Source: Hyella patelloides LEGE 07179
GTDB lineage: Bacteria; Cyanobacteriota; Cyanobacteriia; Cyanobacteriales; Xenococcaceae
Assembly: GCF_900659865.1 (NCBI RefSeq)
Contig: NZ_LR213805.1
Coordinates: 1-36,148, forward strand
Direction of reading: 5' to 3'
DNA: 36,148 nucleotides
Part shown: piece after piece, positions 115-36,148 of the stretch
How the letters are laid out: each line of letters opens with the position of its first letter
How positions within the stretch are numbered: the stretch's first letter is position 1
Notes under the pieces: model-generated
The model's database searches: none
What the model was told of the DNA's origin: nothing
The model's input: only the letters and a program-made list of their open reading frames with translations
Translations under genes and position numbers: made by a program

Positions 115-1512
115 ATGTTAAAAAAAAACTTACGCCGTTTAAATCAAATAATTCGTAACTGGTCTTACTTTCTAATTTGTATTTCAGTAGCAAGCCTTGT
201 TATTTTAACCAATTCCCATCCACTCAAATCTCAAGAAATATTTTTTTCTAAATCGATTTCTGAACCCCAAGAAAAGTTGAATCTTGTAGATTTAGAAAAA
301 TTTTCTGACATGATTGCTGGACTAGAAAAAAAATGGGAACACGATTATGAACGTTATTTTCGGCGCAATTTCTCCAATCGCGATCGCTCAGCTACAAAAA
401 TCGCCGAGCATTTAACAGAAATCCAGCAGCAAGCAGGAATTCGACCAGCAGTTATTTGGGCAGTTCCCACAGATGATTTTTTAGAATTGATGCTAATTAC
501 TCCCGACGAACAATTTGTCACAAAATTCGTTAGAGGAGCAAATCGAGAACTGCTAACTGAAAGAGTTGAGGAATTAGAGTCAGGAATTGAAGCAGGTGCT
601 GCCGATCCTAATTCACTGAAATATTTACCGCCAGCCAGACTTATTTACCAATGGATGTTTGAGCCTCTAGAGCCTTATTTAGAAGCGGAAAACATTGATA
701 CTTTGTTGCTCTGCACTGGACCTACTCTACGCTCTCTACCTTTTGCTGCGCTACACGACGGCGAAAGGTTTATTGTTGAAAAATATAATATAGCCCGTAT
801 TCCTGCCTTCAATTTAACTGATACTGATTATGAACCTAAGCCAGAGCAACAGGTTTTAGCTATGGGGGCATCAGAATTTGATGATTTACCGCCATTACCA
901 GGTATTACAGTAGAACTAGAAACAATCGTACCAAAATTGTGGTCAGGGCAGAAACTAATCAACCAAGCCTTTACTATCCAAAATCTCATGAATGCTCATA
1001 AATCAGGAGGCTTTGATATTATTCATATTGCTTCTCATGCCAAATTCAACTCAGGTTCACCAGAAAATTCTTTTATTCAGTTTAGCGATCGCAAATTAAG
1101 TTTAGATCAAATTGCCAATTTAGAATTAAATCTTCCTCCAGTAGACTTATTAGTTCTTAGCTCTTGTGACACTGCTTTGGGTGATCGAGATGCAGAGTTT
1201 GGTTTTGCTGGATTAGCTATGCAGGCGGGAGTAAAATCTGCTTTAGCCAGTCTATGGAGTATTGATGATACGGGAACAGTGGTTTTGATGAGTAAGTTTT
1301 ATCAACAATTAAGATCGACTCCTATTAAAGCTGCTGCTTTAAGACAAGCTCAAATTAGTGTATTAAAACAAAAAGTTTTTGTGGAAAAAACTGAGGTTAA
1401 AGGTTTAGAAGTTGAGGTAAATTTGCCCCCTACAATTACAGGAGAAGAATCGAGAAACTTTCAACATCCCTTTTACTGGGCAGGATTTACAATTATTGGT
1501 AATCCCTGGTAG
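115..1512 (+). CDS. Membrane-anchored CHAT-domain (caspase-like) protein without TPRs
   Basis: 465 aa. The N terminus is basic and followed by a hydrophobic stretch (about residues 17-32), which suggests a membrane anchor or signal peptide. Residues about 170-465 form a CHAT peptidase-like domain: the conserved His is in DIIHIASHAKF (His308), the Cys in LLVLSSCDTALGD (Cys351), and the C terminus has the usual YWAGFTIIGNPW ending. Both caspase-dyad positions are intact, so proteolytic activity is possible. Many cyanobacterial CHAT proteins carry long N-terminal TPR arrays; here only about 130 residues of non-TPR sequence separate anchor and domain. The substrate is unknown. No strong Shine-Dalgarno precedes the ATG. 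The gene lies between an upstream gene tail and a decayed copy of that tail, suggesting local duplication. Confidence 0.85.
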   Translation: MLKKNLRRLNQIIRNWSYFLICISVASLVILTNSHPLKSQEIFFSKSISEPQEKLNLVDLEKFSDMIAGLEKKWEHDYERYFRRNFSNRDRSATKIAEHLTEIQQQAGIRPAVIWAVPTDDFLELMLITPDEQFVTKFVRGANRELLTERVEELESGIEAGAADPNSLKYLPPARLIYQWMFEPLEPYLEAENIDTLLLCTGPTLRSLPFAALHDGERFIVEKYNIARIPAFNLTDTDYEPKPEQQVLAMGASEFDDLPPLPGITVELETIVPKLWSGQKLINQAFTIQNLMNAHKSGGFDIIHIASHAKFNSGSPENSFIQFSDRKLSLDQIANLELNLPPVDLLVLSSCDTALGDRDAEFGFAGLAMQAGVKSALASLWSIDDTGTVVLMSKFYQQLRSTPIKAAALRQAQISVLKQKVFVEKTEVKGLEVEVNLPPTITGEESRNFQHPFYWAGFTIIGNPW

Positions 1513-1818: not shown

Positions 1819-4800
1819 TTAACTTTCGGGTAATTGTGCTGGTTGCATTGGCTCAATCTGGGGTTGATTTTCAGTTCTTACCCAAGTTGTAAATCGGCTA
1901 GGCTGTACACAAGCGGCACCATCTAAAGTAGTTTTCAGTTTGGTGCTGAAAGACTCGAACATTTCCACTAACGCTTGACGGTCGGTCAAACAGCCTTGGA
2001 GAGCGGTAAGTTGCTCTAAAGTCCAGTTATACAGTTGGGTGTCTCCTTGTTCAATTCTGAGATATAGTTGGGTTTCAAATTGTCCTAAGCGGGAATAGAA
2101 GTTATTGACCTCTTCTCTAATAGACTGCACATCGAGGAAGAATTGTTGTTTCCTCATATCGGAGAATAAGGTTGCTTTCAAAGAATCAGTAAAGTTTTGG
2201 TTTAGCTCATTGTGGACGATGGAAGTGACATCATCGCGGAAGTTGAGCATGGTATTTTCTAGTTTGACATTAATGCGATCGTCAACATCGTTAATCACAT
2301 TATTGACAACTACTTGAAAGCTATTATCGGTCTTATTCTCCACTATAGAATTAATTCGTCGGTCTAAATCTACTTGGATTTGGTTGATTACTCCTTTCTT
2401 AATGTTTTGGCTTTGATTTTCAATTTTTAAACCCACCGCAGCATCAATGCGTTTATCGATGTCTGCTTGTAGCTGTTGATTGACTAAGTTAGTAATTTCT
2501 GGAGTTTGGTCGGATAGTTTCAGATTCACGACAGAATCAATGCGTTTATCGATATCTGCTTGTAGTTGCTGAATGATTAAGTTTTTCAGGTTGGGAGAGC
2601 GATCTGTAATTTTAATGTCAACTACCGAATCAATGCGTTTATCGATGTCTTCTTGTAATAACTGAACCACTTGATGATTAATTTCTGTGGCTTGATTTTC
2701 AATTTTGTGATCGACAATCGTGGTAATCTGTCGCTCCATTTCTTCTTGTAGCTGTCCGACAACTTGATGATTAATTTCTGTAGCTTGATTGTCGATTTTG
2801 ATATTTACTACAGCGTCAATACGACGGTCGATATCTTCTTGCAATTGTTGAACGACTTGGTTTTTAATTTCCGTAGAGCGATCGCTGACTTTAAGATTAA
2901 CCGCAGAATCAATACGGCGATCTATATCTTCTTGTAGTTGTTGGACGACTTGGTTTTTAATTTCTGTTGAGCGATCGCTGAGTCGGAGATTGATTTGCTC
3001 GTCTACCATCGCAGTCATTCTATTTTCGATCAGTTCCTGAAGACGATTATCGAAATAACCAGACCAAGCTTGGAAATTATGATTAAAGCTAGCTTCCATC
3101 TGTTGAGTGATGGATTTCGTCATAAACTCAATCCGCGCTACCTTCATTGCCAGGTCTTTGGCTTGAGTTTGATAGCCTTTGAGAATCCATTTTTCCAGAT
3201 TGTCCCAATAATAGGCTTCTTTTTTCTCGTCTTGTTCGTCAGTTACCGTCACGGAACTCTCGATTTGGGCTGCCATTTGCTGCCACATTTGTTCCATTTG
3301 AGCTTCATCAAAGCGGAAATTAAAACTACTACTTCCGTTATAGCTAGTGGAACTACTCGAACTACTTGAACTACCTACAACTCCTACCGCAACCTGACTT
3401 TCATTTTCTACGGACTTACTGGTTGATGTAGTAGTGCTTCCCTGTTGACGACTACTATTGCTATTTTGCTGTTTTTCGTATTCTTGGGCTAACTCAGTAA
3501 CGCTAATCGGTTCTATCCCTAGAACAATTTGTCCTTGATTGTCTTCTTTATAGGTATCAAAAAAGAATCCTGAAACAGTAGTTTTTGCTTTAACTTCTAA
3601 AATAAATTCGTCTTGGAATCCGTTTAAAGAACACCAAGTTTCGTCTCCTTCGATTCCTGTAAGTTTCGGTACAAATTTGCCAGCTTTAATTTGGATTAAA
3701 GTCCAAGGTTCGAGGTCAAACTTCTGATCATCTGACCAATAACTAGCATTGCCTTCCCGAATTTTAAGGCGATAATTACCAGGTTCTAGTTCGATAAAAT
3801 TATGACCCCATTGCTTCAAACTAGACAGATTATTTTCATTGAGGACATAACAGTTTTGCTTGCTATCGATTGTTAAACATTGAGCAGAAAAAGATGGCTG
3901 ATCGCCAGTAATTGTCAGATCGACAGAACCGCTATTTTCAGTCTGATTGACATCAAAGAACAAACCACAGAGAACGGCTTTATCTTTAACTTCTAATCGT
4001 AAGCGGTCGTTATATCCATTTAAAGTTGTCCAGGTTGCACCAGATTCAACACCAGTCTTGTGATTGATAAAGGTACTGCCATTTTCGCCATAAATCCAAA
4101 GTAAAACTAAAGGTTCTCCTTCTGTACTACTCTTGGCAAAACTGTAGCGACCGCTAGCAATTTTGATTTCATAAGTGCCTCGCTCGAAAGCAAAGGTATT
4201 GGCAACATTTTGTTGCAGATCGTTCATTCCATCAGGATCGATAACGTAGCAGTTGTTTTTGGTATCGATGGTTAATAGCTGCATGGCTTCTTCTACTGTG
4301 TTTTCAGATTGTTTCTTAGCGGTTACTTTTGCAGGAGTTTTTTTAGTTTGTGCTGTTGCTGGTTGATAAGTAGTCATACCAGCCCAACGACCGAGAGGAT
4401 CGGTTTCGGTGACCAAAGTTCCTTGTCCTGTCTTGGTATCGATGCGAATTAATTGACCGTCCTTTCCTAAGTCAAAAAAGTTACCCGTTACGCCATACAG
4501 AACATCTCCGACAAACTCCATACTGGCGAGGTCGGGAAAGCCAATATCGCCGATAATTTTGACTTTATTGGTATCGAGATTACAGCTTGCCAGAAATTTT
4601 TTACGGTCAGAACCAATTAGAGTAATGTAAGCGCGACCATTTTCGTCAAAAGCAATTTCACCACAACCTCTTTTACCCCGACTTACTTTAGTTGCAGGTT
4701 TACCACGACCTGTTTCGAGATCGATCGCAATTAATTGTTTAGCAGCAGAAGCATAAAGAGTTTTCCGTTGACGGTTATATGCTAGACCAACAACATAAAA

Positions 4801-5058
4801 GCCAATATCCCCAATTACAGTAGCATCTCCCGTAGCAGGATCTATTTTGACTAGGCAAGTAGTTTCCCGATCTTTTTCTTGATCTAATCCGTATAGATGC
4901 GAATCGACAGAAGCAATGTCATAAACATCATTGGTAATCGCACCAACTAATTCTGCTTTTCCCGTTGTGAGATCGAGTTGATATAAATTACTGACTTTGT
5001 CTGAAGTACAATCTTGGACATAGACGGTACAAGGCTGAAGTTCAAAATTATTAGTCAT
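1819..5058 (-). CDS. Large mosaic protein: propeller-like head, duplicated beta domain, coiled 31-residue repeats
   Basis: 1079 aa from the ATG at 5058, preferred because AAGGAA lies 10 nt upstream. A TTG at 5148 and an ATG at 5106 are in frame but lack such a site. About residues 10-235 hold repeated blade-like strands (LYQLDLTTGKAELVG, LVKIDPATGDATVIG, LIRIDTKTGQGTLVT), suggesting a beta-propeller. About 259-384 and 388-514 are two copies of one domain (LTIDxKxNCYV ... LNGxxDxxxLEVK ... GxFFD). A Ser/Thr-rich linker (about 534-590) leads into a charged helical region with eight 31-residue repeats (about 688-931) of the form LKxSDRSTEIKNQVVQQLQ + DIDRRID, predicted coiled coil. I see no signal peptide or membrane segment. 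I do not recognise the family; a filament, scaffold or surface-fibre role is conjecture. Confidence 0.8.
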   Translation of the reverse strand: MTNNFELQPCTVYVQDCTSDKVSNLYQLDLTTGKAELVGAITNDVYDIASVDSHLYGLDQEKDRETTCLVKIDPATGDATVIGDIGFYVVGLAYNRQRKTLYASAAKQLIAIDLETGRGKPATKVSRGKRGCGEIAFDENGRAYITLIGSDRKKFLASCNLDTNKVKIIGDIGFPDLASMEFVGDVLYGVTGNFFDLGKDGQLIRIDTKTGQGTLVTETDPLGRWAGMTTYQPATAQTKKTPAKVTAKKQSENTVEEAMQLLTIDTKNNCYVIDPDGMNDLQQNVANTFAFERGTYEIKIASGRYSFAKSSTEGEPLVLLWIYGENGSTFINHKTGVESGATWTTLNGYNDRLRLEVKDKAVLCGLFFDVNQTENSGSVDLTITGDQPSFSAQCLTIDSKQNCYVLNENNLSSLKQWGHNFIELEPGNYRLKIREGNASYWSDDQKFDLEPWTLIQIKAGKFVPKLTGIEGDETWCSLNGFQDEFILEVKAKTTVSGFFFDTYKEDNQGQIVLGIEPISVTELAQEYEKQQNSNSSRQQGSTTTSTSKSVENESQVAVGVVGSSSSSSSSTSYNGSSSFNFRFDEAQMEQMWQQMAAQIESSVTVTDEQDEKKEAYYWDNLEKWILKGYQTQAKDLAMKVARIEFMTKSITQQMEASFNHNFQAWSGYFDNRLQELIENRMTAMVDEQINLRLSDRSTEIKNQVVQQLQEDIDRRIDSAVNLKVSDRSTEIKNQVVQQLQEDIDRRIDAVVNIKIDNQATEINHQVVGQLQEEMERQITTIVDHKIENQATEINHQVVQLLQEDIDKRIDSVVDIKITDRSPNLKNLIIQQLQADIDKRIDSVVNLKLSDQTPEITNLVNQQLQADIDKRIDAAVGLKIENQSQNIKKGVINQIQVDLDRRINSIVENKTDNSFQVVVNNVINDVDDRINVKLENTMLNFRDDVTSIVHNELNQNFTDSLKATLFSDMRKQQFFLDVQSIREEVNNFYSRLGQFETQLYLRIEQGDTQLYNWTLEQLTALQGCLTDRQALVEMFESFSTKLKTTLDGAACVQPSRFTTWVRTENQPQIEPMQPAQLPES
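2266..2995 (-). repeat. Eight 93-bp in-frame tandem repeats (31-aa units)
   Basis: Within the mosaic gene the coding strand repeats with a 93-bp period. The first two units are nearly identical at DNA level, including a shared GCGATCGC at about 2878 and 2971, which marks recent duplication. The later units diverge and the last is degenerate. The protein core is (D/N)xxTEIxxQVVxQLQEDIDRRID. Confidence 0.85.
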
Positions 5059-5178
5059 TTTCAGTTGTTTCCTTGGTTGAAAGAAGGAAAGGATATTTTT
5101 GAACATAGAACAAATGAATATCAAGGAATTATCCTCCCTGATTTCCAAAGAGCATTTACGTCATATTCAACATCTGTC

Positions 5179-23402: not shown

Positions 23403-23876
23403 TTAAAATTTAACTCTGGATTGGCGAGCCATGGTTTTAAATTTATCGAGGCTACCGCCAGGACGACGACGAGATTTAGGTTTTGAGATCAAATAGTCGG
23501 TGGCAAATGTTTTTTCCGCACTTTGTTCGGCTTCTTTCTGCTGGCTAGTTTTATACATTAATTTTACCCAGAATGGTTCTTCAGAGTAAGAAGTGTCAAT
23601 AACTGCTGGAGCAGGCGTTTTTTCTGGAGCAGGTTTTGTTTTTTCGCTTTTAGCTGCTACGGTAGCTACTTTAGATTTAGCTTCTTCTGCAATTTGCTTG
23701 GTTTCTGACTTGATTTCTTGTACTGCTTGAGACTCCGTAACAGCTTGCTTTACTTCCTTAGTTTCTTCTTTGACTTTAGTGGCTACAGCCTCTACTTTAT
23801 CTGCAAGACTAGCATTTTCGCCTACTTCCAAATAAAATTTATTTTTTTTTCCAAAGTTAATTAATTTTCCTAGCAT
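23403..23876 (-). CDS. Hypothetical Lys/Ala/Glu-rich protein upstream of rplC
   Basis: 157 aa. The N terminus reads MLGKLINFGKKNKFYLEVGE. A charged, heptad-like helical stretch rich in Val, Lys and Glu follows (about residues 24-85), then a Pro/Ala/Lys linker (KTKPAPEKTPAPA), a short conserved-looking patch SEEPFWVKLMYKTSQQK and a basic tail (SKPKSRRRPGGSLDKFKTMA). There is no signal peptide or membrane segment. It points the same way as rplC, 485 nt upstream. I do not recognise a family; the basic tail could bind nucleic acid or the ribosome. Confidence 0.75.
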   Translation of the reverse strand: MLGKLINFGKKNKFYLEVGENASLADKVEAVATKVKEETKEVKQAVTESQAVQEIKSETKQIAEEAKSKVATVAAKSEKTKPAPEKTPAPAVIDTSYSEEPFWVKLMYKTSQQKEAEQSAEKTFATDYLISKPKSRRRPGGSLDKFKTMARQSRVKF

Positions 23877-29423: not shown

Positions 29424-31985
29424 TCAGACAAAAGCAAATACAGAATCATCCATAGTCAACTCAGGAGAAATATTTTTTAAGACACCAATAAGTTCTCCCG
29501 CAGTTTCAATTCCTGGATCGTAAATTAGTTTGGCATCAATAGTTCCTGCTTCAGAACCAAAGAAATCTAAACTATATAATTCTGCCGAACCAGTTAGCTG
29601 AATTGTATCTTGATTAGTATTCAAGTCTGTAATCATGGCAAAATCAGATTCTCCAGCAGAAAAATTGTCCGCATCAGAATAATAAACAGTATCGGAATCA
29701 CCTAAGACAAAAGTATCTTCTCCAGCACCACCAGTAAGAGTATCAATTTCTCCTAAACCAAAGTTGGATTCACGAATATCAGTTTCAATCCCGATTAAAG
29801 TATCGTCACCATCTGCGCCAGAGAGTTCATCATCACCATTTCCTCCTGCAAGATAGTCAAATCCAGCACCACCTCTCAAGATATCTGCTCGATCTCCACC
29901 ATTAAGGATATCGTCACCAGCACCACCATTAAGGGTATCGTTACCTTGTTGACCATTGAGAGTATCTTCTCCTGTACCACCATTGATGGTATCATTTCCA
30001 TACTGCCCAAAAATGCGATCGCTACCAGTATCACCATTGAGAAGATCGTTACCAGAATTTCCTTGAAGAGTGTCATTTCCAGCATTTCCTCGAAGAATAT
30101 CATCATCCTCTTGTCCTAAAAGGCGATCGTTACCAGAACCACCTTTGAGTGTATCTTCTCCTCTACCACCTTCTAGGGTATCATTATCGGCATCACCATT
30201 AAGCAGATCGTTACCATCTTGTCCGAGCAGGCGATCGTTTCCTTTGCCACCTTTGAGGGTGTCACTACCTGCTAATCCATCAAGGGTGTCATCTCCTTTT
30301 AAACCAGAAAGGGAGTCTGCACCAATAGTCCCAGTCAGTGAGTCATTGTCTACTGTTCCAGTTATATCTAGAGGGGTGAAACCAAAAACCACATAAGCTT
30401 TGCCTTCACCGTCATAAGAAAAGTCAGTATCGGCATTGGGCGCACCGATAACAAGATCGTCAAAACTATCACCATTCAAGTCTCCTGAACCGCTAACAGA
30501 GTTTCCAAAACCTTCATAGTTATTGCGACTGAGAAGAAGACCATCATTGGGATCGAGAGTATTTAAATCTATGTTGGCATCAAAACTACCACTATTTCCG
30601 AATAGCAAGTAAACTTGCCCTTCAGTGTTGTAATCATAGCTAGAATTAGCATAGGGTACGCTGATGATAATATCGTCGAAACCATCACCATTAAAATCTC
30701 CCGCACTGCTTACAGAACGTCCCAGATTGTCATAGGAGTTGATGCCACTGATTTGGAAGCCATTGCTACCATCGAGAGTAGATAAATCTAATTCGGCATC
30801 GAAACCCTCAGTACTACCAAAAACAATATAAGCTTCACCTCGACGATCCGAATTAGTATAGAATCCGTAATCAAAAATAACTTTTTCTCCCGCGTAGGGT
30901 GCGCCAATAATCAGATCGTCAATCCCATCACCATTGATATCTCCTGCATTACTGACAGAACGACCTAAATTATCATTATCCCCATTGCCAGGGATTGTAA
31001 AACCATTACTACCATTGAGAGCATTGATATCTAACTCAGAGTCAAAGTCTTTAGTACTACCAAAAATAATATAGGCTTCTCCGCGACTACTGTAATAATC
31101 ATCAGAATCATTAGCATAAGGTGCGCCAATAATCAGATCGTCAATCCCATCACCGTTAATATCTCCTGCATTGCTTACAGAACTTCCCAGATTGTCATAG
31201 GAGTTGATGCCATTGATTTGAAAGCCATTACTCCCATTAAGAGTCGATAAATCTAATTCAGTATTGAAGCCCTCAGTACTACCAAAAACAATATATGCTT
31301 CCCCTCGACGATCAGAATAAGTATAGTTTCCGTAATAAGAAGTAACTTCTTCTCCAGCTTCAGGCGCGCCAATAATCAGATCGTCAATCCCATCACCGTT
31401 AATATCTCCTGCACTACTTACAGAACGACCTAAATTATCTCCATCAGCATTACCAGGGATTATAAAACCATTACTACCATCAAGAGTGGATACATCTAAC
31501 TTAGAGTCGAAACCCTCAGTACTACCAAAAATAATATAGGCTTCTCCGTCACTATTGTAAGAATCACTGGGATTATCAGCAAAAGGCGCGCTGACAATCA
31601 GATCGTCAATACCATCGCCGTTAACATCCCCTGCATTGCTGACAGAGCGTCCCAGATTGTCATCGGAGTTGATGCCACTGAGTTGGAAGCCATTACTAAC
31701 ATCAAGAGCGGATACATTTAATTCAACATCAAAACCCTCAGTACGACCAAAAATAATGTAAGCTTCTCCTCGACGATCAGAAGAAGTATATTCTCCGTAA
31801 TACCCAGAGTAATTAACTTCTTCTCCAGCCCCAGGTGCGCCAATAATCAGATCGTCAATACCATCGCCGTTAACATCCCCTGCATTGCTCACAGAGCTTC
31901 CTACATTACCAAATCGATCTTCACCGATAATAACGAAACCGCTATTACCATCTGAGTTTGCGAGATTTAATCCATCGAGAGCCAC
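29424..31985 (-). CDS. FG-GAP seven-blade propeller plus RTX calcium-binding protein
   Basis: 853 aa. The GTG start has GAGG 9 nt upstream. About residues 16-543 form seven FG-GAP/integrin-alpha blades, each with a DxNGDGxDD calcium loop (for example DVNGDGIDD). About 544-745 hold some 20 RTX nonapeptides (GGxGxDxLx, as in GGKGNDRLL), which form a calcium beta-roll. The C-terminal ~100 residues (after DTFVLGDSDTVYYSDAD) look like the uncleaved type I secretion region. No N-terminal signal peptide is seen, consistent with that route; no transporter gene lies here. Likely an extracellular surface, matrix or adhesion protein. Confidence 0.9.
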   Translation of the reverse strand: MALDGLNLANSDGNSGFVIIGEDRFGNVGSSVSNAGDVNGDGIDDLIIGAPGAGEEVNYSGYYGEYTSSDRRGEAYIIFGRTEGFDVELNVSALDVSNGFQLSGINSDDNLGRSVSNAGDVNGDGIDDLIVSAPFADNPSDSYNSDGEAYIIFGSTEGFDSKLDVSTLDGSNGFIIPGNADGDNLGRSVSSAGDINGDGIDDLIIGAPEAGEEVTSYYGNYTYSDRRGEAYIVFGSTEGFNTELDLSTLNGSNGFQINGINSYDNLGSSVSNAGDINGDGIDDLIIGAPYANDSDDYYSSRGEAYIIFGSTKDFDSELDINALNGSNGFTIPGNGDNDNLGRSVSNAGDINGDGIDDLIIGAPYAGEKVIFDYGFYTNSDRRGEAYIVFGSTEGFDAELDLSTLDGSNGFQISGINSYDNLGRSVSSAGDFNGDGFDDIIISVPYANSSYDYNTEGQVYLLFGNSGSFDANIDLNTLDPNDGLLLSRNNYEGFGNSVSGSGDLNGDSFDDLVIGAPNADTDFSYDGEGKAYVVFGFTPLDITGTVDNDSLTGTIGADSLSGLKGDDTLDGLAGSDTLKGGKGNDRLLGQDGNDLLNGDADNDTLEGGRGEDTLKGGSGNDRLLGQEDDDILRGNAGNDTLQGNSGNDLLNGDTGSDRIFGQYGNDTINGGTGEDTLNGQQGNDTLNGGAGDDILNGGDRADILRGGAGFDYLAGGNGDDELSGADGDDTLIGIETDIRESNFGLGEIDTLTGGAGEDTFVLGDSDTVYYSDADNFSAGESDFAMITDLNTNQDTIQLTGSAELYSLDFFGSEAGTIDAKLIYDPGIETAGELIGVLKNISPELTMDDSVFAFV
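30543..31940 (-). repeat. Alternating two-blade (A-B) repeat, about 465-bp period, three units
   Basis: Blades 1, 3 and 5 (81-83 aa) share a longer loop with SDRRGEAYI. Blades 2, 4 and 6 (73-74 aa) share GFQxxGINSxDNLG. The DNA therefore repeats as A-B pairs of about 465 bp, three times, before a divergent seventh blade. Confidence 0.8.
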
Positions 31986-32501: not shown

Positions 32502-32999
32502 TCAAAAAAGGGATTTGCCGTAAAATTTGAACAACAGCATCCCGATAGTAAATGCAGTCAAACCCAGCACTATTAGAATAACTTGAGCTATTTTGTGAGA
32601 ACAACCAGCAGTTTGCAAATCTAGGCGAAATAACATTGCAGCAGCCGATAAAATTAAGAAACGAATTAAAACAACAGGGTATTCTATAATTATGGCGAAA
32701 AGCACGATACTTACGATAATGGTAAATAAGGCTTTAGCATCTGCTCTGAACCAGTTGTCCATCCCTAAAGTTATAAGAGTTATGGGAGTGGTAAAAAATA
32801 AAATTACTAAGATAATAGACAGCAAACCCAATCCATAGGAAATTGCCAAAGCAGTTGATGGCGTTACCCATGCATACCAGAGTCTTGCTTTGGTGGCTAG
32901 TTCTTCTATTACCCAAGAACCATAAAGCCAGCCAAATACCCCATGAGTAGCTATTAAAAGTATCGGAGAAATTCGCGGGATTTTTTTAAACCAATCCAT
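32502..32999 (-). CDS. Small integral membrane protein, unknown function
   Basis: 165 aa. Five or six hydrophobic segments are visible (about residues 10-31, 43-60, 60-79, 90-107, 108-123 and 137-158). The start MDWFKKIPRISPILL is basic. No catalytic motif is recognised, and the ATG has no evident Shine-Dalgarno. The flanking spacers on both sides are rich in inverted repeats, so the gene stands alone. Confidence 0.7.
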   Translation of the reverse strand: MDWFKKIPRISPILLIATHGVFGWLYGSWVIEELATKARLWYAWVTPSTALAISYGLGLLSIILVILFFTTPITLITLGMDNWFRADAKALFTIIVSIVLFAIIIEYPVVLIRFLILSAAAMLFRLDLQTAGCSHKIAQVILIVLGLTAFTIGMLLFKFYGKSLF

Positions 33000-34792: not shown

Positions 34793-36148
34793 CTAAACTA
34801 AAAATTGTGCTGCAATTGCATCGACCTCAAAAGGTGTAATTCCTAACTCAACAGAAAAAACAGTATCGGCTGCTTCTGGAGTACTTACTTCTTCTCCCCT
34901 AGCCTGCACGTGAAGTTTAAATAATCGATCCAGTTTAGGCTTATTTAAACTTGTCAAAGCTTTACCAATCAATACCATGCCCTTTTGATTATTCTCAATA
35001 TTATTACCTCTGCACCAGCTAGGCTGACGGGAAAGACTCATATCCGTCCACAGTATTTCTCGACTTCCTAAATCCAAAATAGCAGGAATACTAATGGCAG
35101 TATTAGCAGTCAAATCTACCTTATCTTGTACAGTCTGAGGTTCATAAATATCTCCACTAGCAGCATCTTGGCGAATCATCCAACCTGCAAAGCATTCAGG
35201 AATATTACAGAAAGGATGCTCGTTAAAAGACAAAACACTAACAACTATATATCTACCACCATACTTTAATACTGAGGGTATGTCTAAATCGATAAACTCA
35301 GATGCACCATTGGGTGCAGAAATAATATCACCACTATGAACAGCCTGATATTTATCAGATTTTAAATTGGTATAGGAAACGTGTTCTAAATAATTCCATT
35401 CAGCATCATACATTACCGCAGACAAGTCTAGATCGACATCTCCTGTTGGTTCTCTATTAATTACCCCTTCTTTCCACCAGATAAAAAATCTGACTGTATC
35501 TCCTGCTGGAATAGGCAATCTAGAGCCTCTAGTTAGCTGACGCAGGGACTTATTAGCAGAGCGTTGAGAAAAAGGGACGGGAAATGAGTGTAATTGCTCA
35601 TCAATGTATACTTTACCTAATACGGGTAATTGGGCAAAGCGATCGATCAAAGCCTGTTCACAAATTTGCACGACAGTTTGGCAGACAGATTTTTTAATCT
35701 TAGGTAATTCATTCTTAATGGCAAATGCCTTGGCAACGTTTCCTTTGGGGAAAAATACACGTAGCTCGTCCATTTGATGGCGATGTTCAAAATGACTGAT
35801 TAATTGTAATAAAACAGGTGTGGCAATTTGATTAGTTACTGTCTGAAAAGATTCAATTACTATCGATCGATCTTCATGATTTCTCAGTAAAAAGTCCAAA
35901 CGTCTGGCTAATTCTCCTGGTCTAGTTTGTAATAAACTTAAAGCATCCTGCCATTTTTCTTCAATAAAAGCAGTCTCTAAGCGACTGTTGAAAGTAGTGA
36001 CGGGTTTATTGTTACGGAGAATATCGAAAGCTTGATAACATTTGGGATAACGTTTCTTATATTCAAAAGGATGTATTCTTTCACCCAAACGAAGCCATCT
36101 TTTTTGATAACGCAGCATATCCTCCACTAATGAGTCACACTGCTCTAA
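34793..36148 (-). CDS. TerD-like protein (resembles MXAN_6230/SCO0854 family), 5' end beyond window
   Basis: At least 451 codons. The frame is open upstream of the GTG at 36127 to the window edge, so the N terminus is probably missing. About residues 205-325 (from that GTG) resemble a TerD/stress domain: RFFIWWKEG, the acidic GDVDLDLSAVMYD, HSGDIISAPNGASEFIDLD and PECFAGWMIRQ. The C terminus (ILDLGSREILWTDMSLS, then ADTVFSVELGITPFEVDAIA) matches what I recall of the MXAN_6230/SCO0854 family, whose members have a RING-like N-terminal region. The first ~170 residues here are helical. TerD domains bind calcium and occur in tellurite- and stress-response gene sets; no other ter gene is visible here. 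Confidence 0.7.
   Translation of the reverse strand, partial: LEQCDSLVEDMLRYQKRWLRLGERIHPFEYKKRYPKCYQAFDILRNNKPVTTFNSRLETAFIEEKWQDALSLLQTRPGELARRLDFLLRNHEDRSIVIESFQTVTNQIATPVLLQLISHFEHRHQMDELRVFFPKGNVAKAFAIKNELPKIKKSVCQTVVQICEQALIDRFAQLPVLGKVYIDEQLHSFPVPFSQRSANKSLRQLTRGSRLPIPAGDTVRFFIWWKEGVINREPTGDVDLDLSAVMYDAEWNYLEHVSYTNLKSDKYQAVHSGDIISAPNGASEFIDLDIPSVLKYGGRYIVVSVLSFNEHPFCNIPECFAGWMIRQDAASGDIYEPQTVQDKVDLTANTAISIPAILDLGSREILWTDMSLSRQPSWCRGNNIENNQKGMVLIGKALTSLNKPKLDRLFKLHVQARGEEVSTPEAADTVFSVELGITPFEVDAIAAQFLV

Follow-up and report, generated by a model that had tools for sequence, protein, structure and literature searches.

What could a single cyanobacterial protein do that joins a beta-propeller, a pair of like beta domains and a long rod of 31-residue repeats, and on which side of the membrane would it act? 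The gene that raises this question lies in a 36,148-nucleotide stretch of Hyella patelloides LEGE 07179 (the window), on a cyanobacterial contig (G000:C40) that also carries a ribosomal-protein cluster, in a genome of 8.06 Mb. A reading-frame check found the ORF intact (1819..5106, minus strand), without interruption over 1095 codons. An earlier note on this DNA had the right coordinates but began translation at ATG 5058, giving 1079 aa; the true start is probably ATG 5106, giving 1095 aa. We moved it there because the 16 added residues, MFKNILSFFQPRKQLK, match the leader of homologues, and their codons differ synonymously from species to species. The leader (residues 1-17; 5056..5106, minus strand) is aromatic/hydrophobic and then basic, a pattern kept in homologues with and without a vWA domain, and it may make peripheral contact with the membrane. 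The prfA gene lies upstream on the same strand, and we noticed no conserved gene order surrounding this copy. We propose, at a probability of roughly one half, that the product is a cytoplasmic, oligomeric docking scaffold and not a surface adhesin.

The head of the protein begins with the propeller (residues 27-247; 4366..5028, minus strand), which AlphaFold models as all-beta with a pLDDT of about 90 and which gave Foldseek propeller matches at E of about 1e-9. It contains a short but significant match to DUF4394 (PF14339; E = 6e-9, 36 bits against a cut-off of 29.6). This likeness covers ~30 residues, positions 199-230 of the 230-position model, with nothing outside the propeller, and at a threshold of 0.01 it was not found in two relatives (L021 and L023). 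Two beta domains follow on the minus strand, the first at residues 275-401 (3904..4284; profile match 3907-4284, E = 4e-54) and the second at residues 407-533 (3508..3888; profile match 3511-3885, E = 2e-52). They are 37% identical to each other over 128 aligned columns (E = 7e-27), and both are modelled at a pLDDT of about 90 in the full protein; modelled alone, the beta domain reaches 87. The predicted fold is beta-sandwich-like, and the model had no significant Foldseek match in the PDB or in the viral library. The sequence pattern had suggested a LecA-type lectin; we rejected this identity since the best PDB match has E = 0.006 and a TM score of about 0.35, and LecA is missing from the top 50 Foldseek hits. 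Sequence searches of the PDB likewise gave no match, whether the query was the whole protein or a profile of the beta or the vWA domain.

The same beta domain occurs in a second setting. At L054:10307-14646 and in L071-L080, a stand-alone gene for a beta domain of 129-141 aa is followed by a gene for a PBP_like_2-TM-DUF4912(n)-beta protein and, in Leptolyngbyaceae, by a C39-peptidase ABC exporter. These PBP_like_2 proteins share the beta domain with the window family and adjoin its gene in L054, but they are membrane proteins with a periplasmic PBP domain and have no propeller, rod or CTD. We found no paper on them. A PBP_like_2-TM-TPR-divergent vWA-beta fusion (L074:2866-6372) joins the two beta-domain systems.

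Behind the head, a Ser/Thr/Asn-rich linker (3307..3459, minus strand) with pLDDT below 50 varies in length among homologues. It leads into the neck (2980..3306, minus strand), a segment with the motif YWDNLEKWILKGYQTQAK that is conserved in alignments and helical in the model, and which includes a degenerate repeat at residues 679-709. The rod itself comprises seven clear 31-residue repeats (residues 710-926; 2329..2979, minus strand), supported by TRF, which reports 93-bp arrays between 2439 and 2991, by autocorrelation and by hydrophobic core positions. Identity at lag 31 is 0.39 in this region, compared with no more than 0.16 in 1000 shuffles. The earlier count of eight repeats is thus approximate: seven are clear and those flanking them are degenerate. 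Structure prediction, which had been suggested as a check, does return the repeats as helices, though at low confidence, as for all parts beyond the propeller and beta domains. In the repeats of 17 proteins, positions 7, 11, 15, 19, 23 and 27 are hydrophobic in 119 of 119 cases; after these positions comes an alternating V-N-L-K-I stretch before the next helix. The repeat can be read as 22 + 9 residues ending in the V-N-L-K-I segment, like the alpha/beta coiled coils with beta-layers (Hartmann et al. 2016, PMC4786415), although the individual residues do not all follow the consensus given there. The likeness is one of analogy; the repeat pattern is compatible with a trimeric alpha/beta coiled coil.

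These data bear out the three parts recognised earlier, a propeller, paired beta domains and a helical repeat rod, on the strength of AlphaFold, Foldseek, the duplication and the lag-31 identity, but the three do not make up the full plan. Alignment separates a fourth, strongly conserved domain, the CTD (residues 946-1095; 1822..2271, minus strand), which is common to a membrane sister protein of other cyanobacteria and present in a single copy in the window genome.

We compared the distance from neck to CTD in 21 distinct proteins of the 31-residue type. In 17 of them it comes to exactly 392 residues; these 17 fall into three groups, Pleurocapsales kin, Microcoleus and short core forms, and their distance from beta domain 2 to the neck ranges over 97-172. 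A single length for every rod of this type is ruled out by the departures: 516 residues in L043 (longer than 392 by 124, the length of four repeats), 515 in L032, 395 in L023/L057 (Xenococcus, with degenerate repeats) and about 309 in L058 (a hand count from the sequence). In the 392-residue group, repeats are usually closer to the repeat at the same position in other species than to those within their own protein, although this fails locally, for instance in repeats 1-2 of the window protein. Since repeats at the same position are alike across species, the copy number is old and constant in this group.

A rod frozen in length in 17 proteins and changed by whole repeats in others looks as if it were packed in register, and together with the head-rod-tail plan this suggests a filament-forming, cytoskeletal protein that polymerises in the manner of an intermediate filament. 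Cyanobacteria do have coiled-coil-rich proteins that form filaments, with candidates of about 280-650 aa (Springstein et al. 2020, PMC7002697), and like the window protein they are probably intracellular. No vWA, propeller or beta domain is described for these candidates, however, and the globular domains here far exceed those of known bacterial filament formers. The rods of a sister group with 37/34/117-residue repeats vary widely, with neck-to-CTD distances of 467-1031, and the CTD was found in only 6 of 292 genomes of the phylum sample. We regard a cytoskeletal role as unlikely.

The count of 6 in 292 also shows that the family is sparse. When 40 relatives were searched, roughly a dozen genomes proved to have homologues, and scanning GTDB contigs yielded 52 loci, all cyanobacterial by title, about 40 of which have the rod-type gene while the others have the beta domain only. 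Searches of Pfam, NCBIfam, PADLOC and the PDB returned no family that covers the protein, beyond the partial DUF4394 match, in agreement with the earlier impression that no named family has this order of domains. We found no paper or family model for the architecture, and nothing relevant in the literature on DUF4394, AAA_35 or DUF4912; the modules themselves are of known kinds. This is, apparently, an undescribed cyanobacterial family of propeller-rod proteins.

The window protein had looked like a lone mosaic. Its modules are indeed joined, but it represents one state of the family, whose fullest form runs from the leader through a vWA domain, propeller, beta 1, beta 2, linker, neck and repeats to the CTD. 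Set against this form, the protein of the window is shortened. Proteins without vWA occur in the window, Microcoleus and several Nostoc, and forms lacking both vWA and propeller occur in L025, L026, L033-L038 and L043. The tree built from the beta/neck region that these proteins have in common requires no fewer than six changes in whether vWA is present and no fewer than two for the propeller, as counts without direction. In L055/L069, a C-terminal scrap of vWA is still fused to the leader, so that in those loci the domain was lost. The vWA is absent from the window gene and from its genome, as searched with a profile that detects it in three relatives used as positive controls. The assignment of this N-terminal domain as a vWA rests on weak but consistent matches: VWA_4 in six of seven members (best E 1.7e-4, under the curated cut-off), hits of other vWA models on the MIDAS strand, and a MIDAS motif DTSPS (DxSxS) in six vWA-bearing members. 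In a separate variant (L062:1618-8292), a protein of 2225 aa has about 20 TPRs where the vWA would be, followed by the propeller and the beta pair.

Is the shortened form in the window simply a decaying relic, stripped of its vWA and partners and left without function? Decay is visible and common among related loci, with a truncated copy in G011, an orphan fragment in G015 and five stops in G156, and the window row is the longest branch among its close kin. Yet its frame is intact over the whole gene, its 392-residue spacing is fixed, it keeps 55-70% identity to distant homologues throughout, and vWA-less genes persist intact in several lineages. We consider a relic very improbable.

The location of the scaffold is suggested by the sister protein. 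In seven loci (L043, L044, L048, L049, L050, L053 and L066), a gene just downstream encodes an N-terminal signal-like segment, a periplasmic part, a second TM segment, coil repeats and the same CTD; the genome of L054 has an unlinked sister. Our hydropathy scan left the TM segments of L048 and the first TM of L053 and L066 unflagged. The periplasmic part is a PBP_like_2 (PstS-like) domain in L044, L053 and L066, with E = 6e-28 to 8e-32 in the L066 and L044 sisters and the L053 sister being a 93% homologue, and it is of low complexity in L043 and L048-L050. The coil and CTD come after the second TM segment and, by topology, should be on the cytoplasmic side. The sister coil is about 134-196 aa, far shorter than the rod of the propeller-rod protein, and a full-length parallel hetero-rod is therefore unlikely. 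Among 15 matched genomes, the CTD profile found two copies in 4 and one copy in 11, so that these 11 have no sister, and the single copy in the window genome means that the sister is absent there too. From these counts, any co-assembly with the sister would be optional at most.

This topology bears directly on the surface rod with a binding head that had been imagined for the window protein. A secreted or surface fibrous adhesin, with its rod projecting from the cell and its propeller and beta domains binding ligands, would fit the head-plus-rod plan; there is an FG-GAP/RTX surface-type protein elsewhere in the window, and in Leptolyngbyaceae the related beta-domain module lies near the C39-peptidase exporter. 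In contrast, the window protein showed neither a TM segment nor anything like a signal in the hydropathy scan (the earlier note, too, had seen no secretion signal), its N-terminal leader is charged and not a signal, and a like coil with the same CTD should be cytoplasmic in the sister. These observations disfavour the adhesin, which we judge improbable, and they argue for a cytoplasmic scaffold.

AAA_35 ATPases, of which there are 6-16 per genome, are enriched near the family's genes. Their genes adjoin the propeller-rod gene at 11 of 37 usable loci, where 0.7 would be expected (about 15 times chance; P about 1e-10 on the assumption of independent loci, which does not hold among related species). 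The window has no linked AAA_35 gene. Co-loss of vWA and AAA_35 gave a Fisher p of 0.01, but with three independent contrasts on supported branches it is not significant given the tree, and the association of AAA_35 with vWA is suggestive only. In G005, G012, G015, G019 and G333, two AAA_35 genes frequently stand side by side, a full-scoring short one with a weaker, longer one carrying another domain such as CHASE2 or WD40.

The AAA_35 enrichment could also point to an NTP-dependent defence or conflict system, in which a vWA-propeller protein partners AAA_35 ATPases and effectors, CHAT or others, are encoded close by. A CHAT-domain protein (window 115-1512, plus strand; E = 4e-68, with a weak PADLOC match to BovA) is convergent to the propeller-rod gene, and a second CHAT gene, together with AAA_35, lies upstream of the G024 homologue (L028). 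The distribution is patchy, with decayed copies, one of them degraded on a mobilizable Nostoc plasmid. Furthermore, the MoxR-vWA ternary conflict systems carry a vWA with a C-terminal propeller in one protein (Kaur et al. 2020, PMC7159879), the same order as in the fuller relatives here, and they too belong to multicellular or complex prokaryotes including cyanobacteria. The family's fusion differs in that the chain continues with the beta pair, the rod and the CTD, its enriched neighbour is AAA_35 and not MoxR, and the window protein has neither vWA nor a linked AAA_35. MoxR as a partner was rejected: in nine genomes, bpMoxR hits were on other contigs or far away. Nor was there a PADLOC match at 0.01 for the window protein, L021 or the L066 sister, and CHAT was close in only two of the loci examined. 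A defence role thus seems unlikely to us.

In the docking scaffold that we favour, the neck, 31-residue repeats and CTD would assemble as a multi-stranded rod, with the CTD as the common assembly module, and the rod would display several heads whose propeller and two beta domains would bind a ligand or partner. Fuller relatives would add a peptide-binding vWA domain to the head, and AAA_35 ATPases are probable functional partners of this form. In part of the Nostocales, a co-encoded single-pass membrane protein with the same CTD behind a cytoplasmic coil may tether or signal to the scaffold. Given that the window organism has neither vWA nor sister, its protein would act as a homo-oligomer in which binding falls to the propeller and the beta domains. 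Of this picture, we observed the order of domains, the lack of vWA, the CTD held in common, the adjacency of the genes and the pattern of lengths; oligomerisation, the cytoplasmic location, binding and the AAA_35 partnership are inferences.

A more elaborate version, which we find doubtful, would be a two-component scaffold from envelope to cytoplasm: a PstS-like periplasmic sensor linked through the shared CTD to a cytoplasmic vWA-propeller rod set in whole 31-residue units, with AAA_35 acting on the vWA head and the window protein as a stripped-down, sensor-free form. Should such a partnership exist, cyanobacteria would have a new route for a periplasmic signal into a cytoplasmic assembly. 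The family unites vWA, propeller, an unassigned beta-sandwich and repeat rod, usually studied apart, and its CTD recurs in membrane proteins with a PstS-like sensor in the periplasm. Rod length and the need for each domain lend themselves to direct tests, given the fixed 392-residue spacing, the jumps by whole repeats and the repeated changes in vWA presence.

Elsewhere in the window, three minus-strand ORFs (34793-36127, 444 aa; 32502-32999, 165 aa; 23403-23876, 157 aa) had no Pfam match at 0.01. The FG-GAP/RTX protein (29424-31985, minus strand) is 853 aa long, with FG-GAP and RTX calcium-binding repeats, and its DNA has long tandem repeats (222 and 465 bp).
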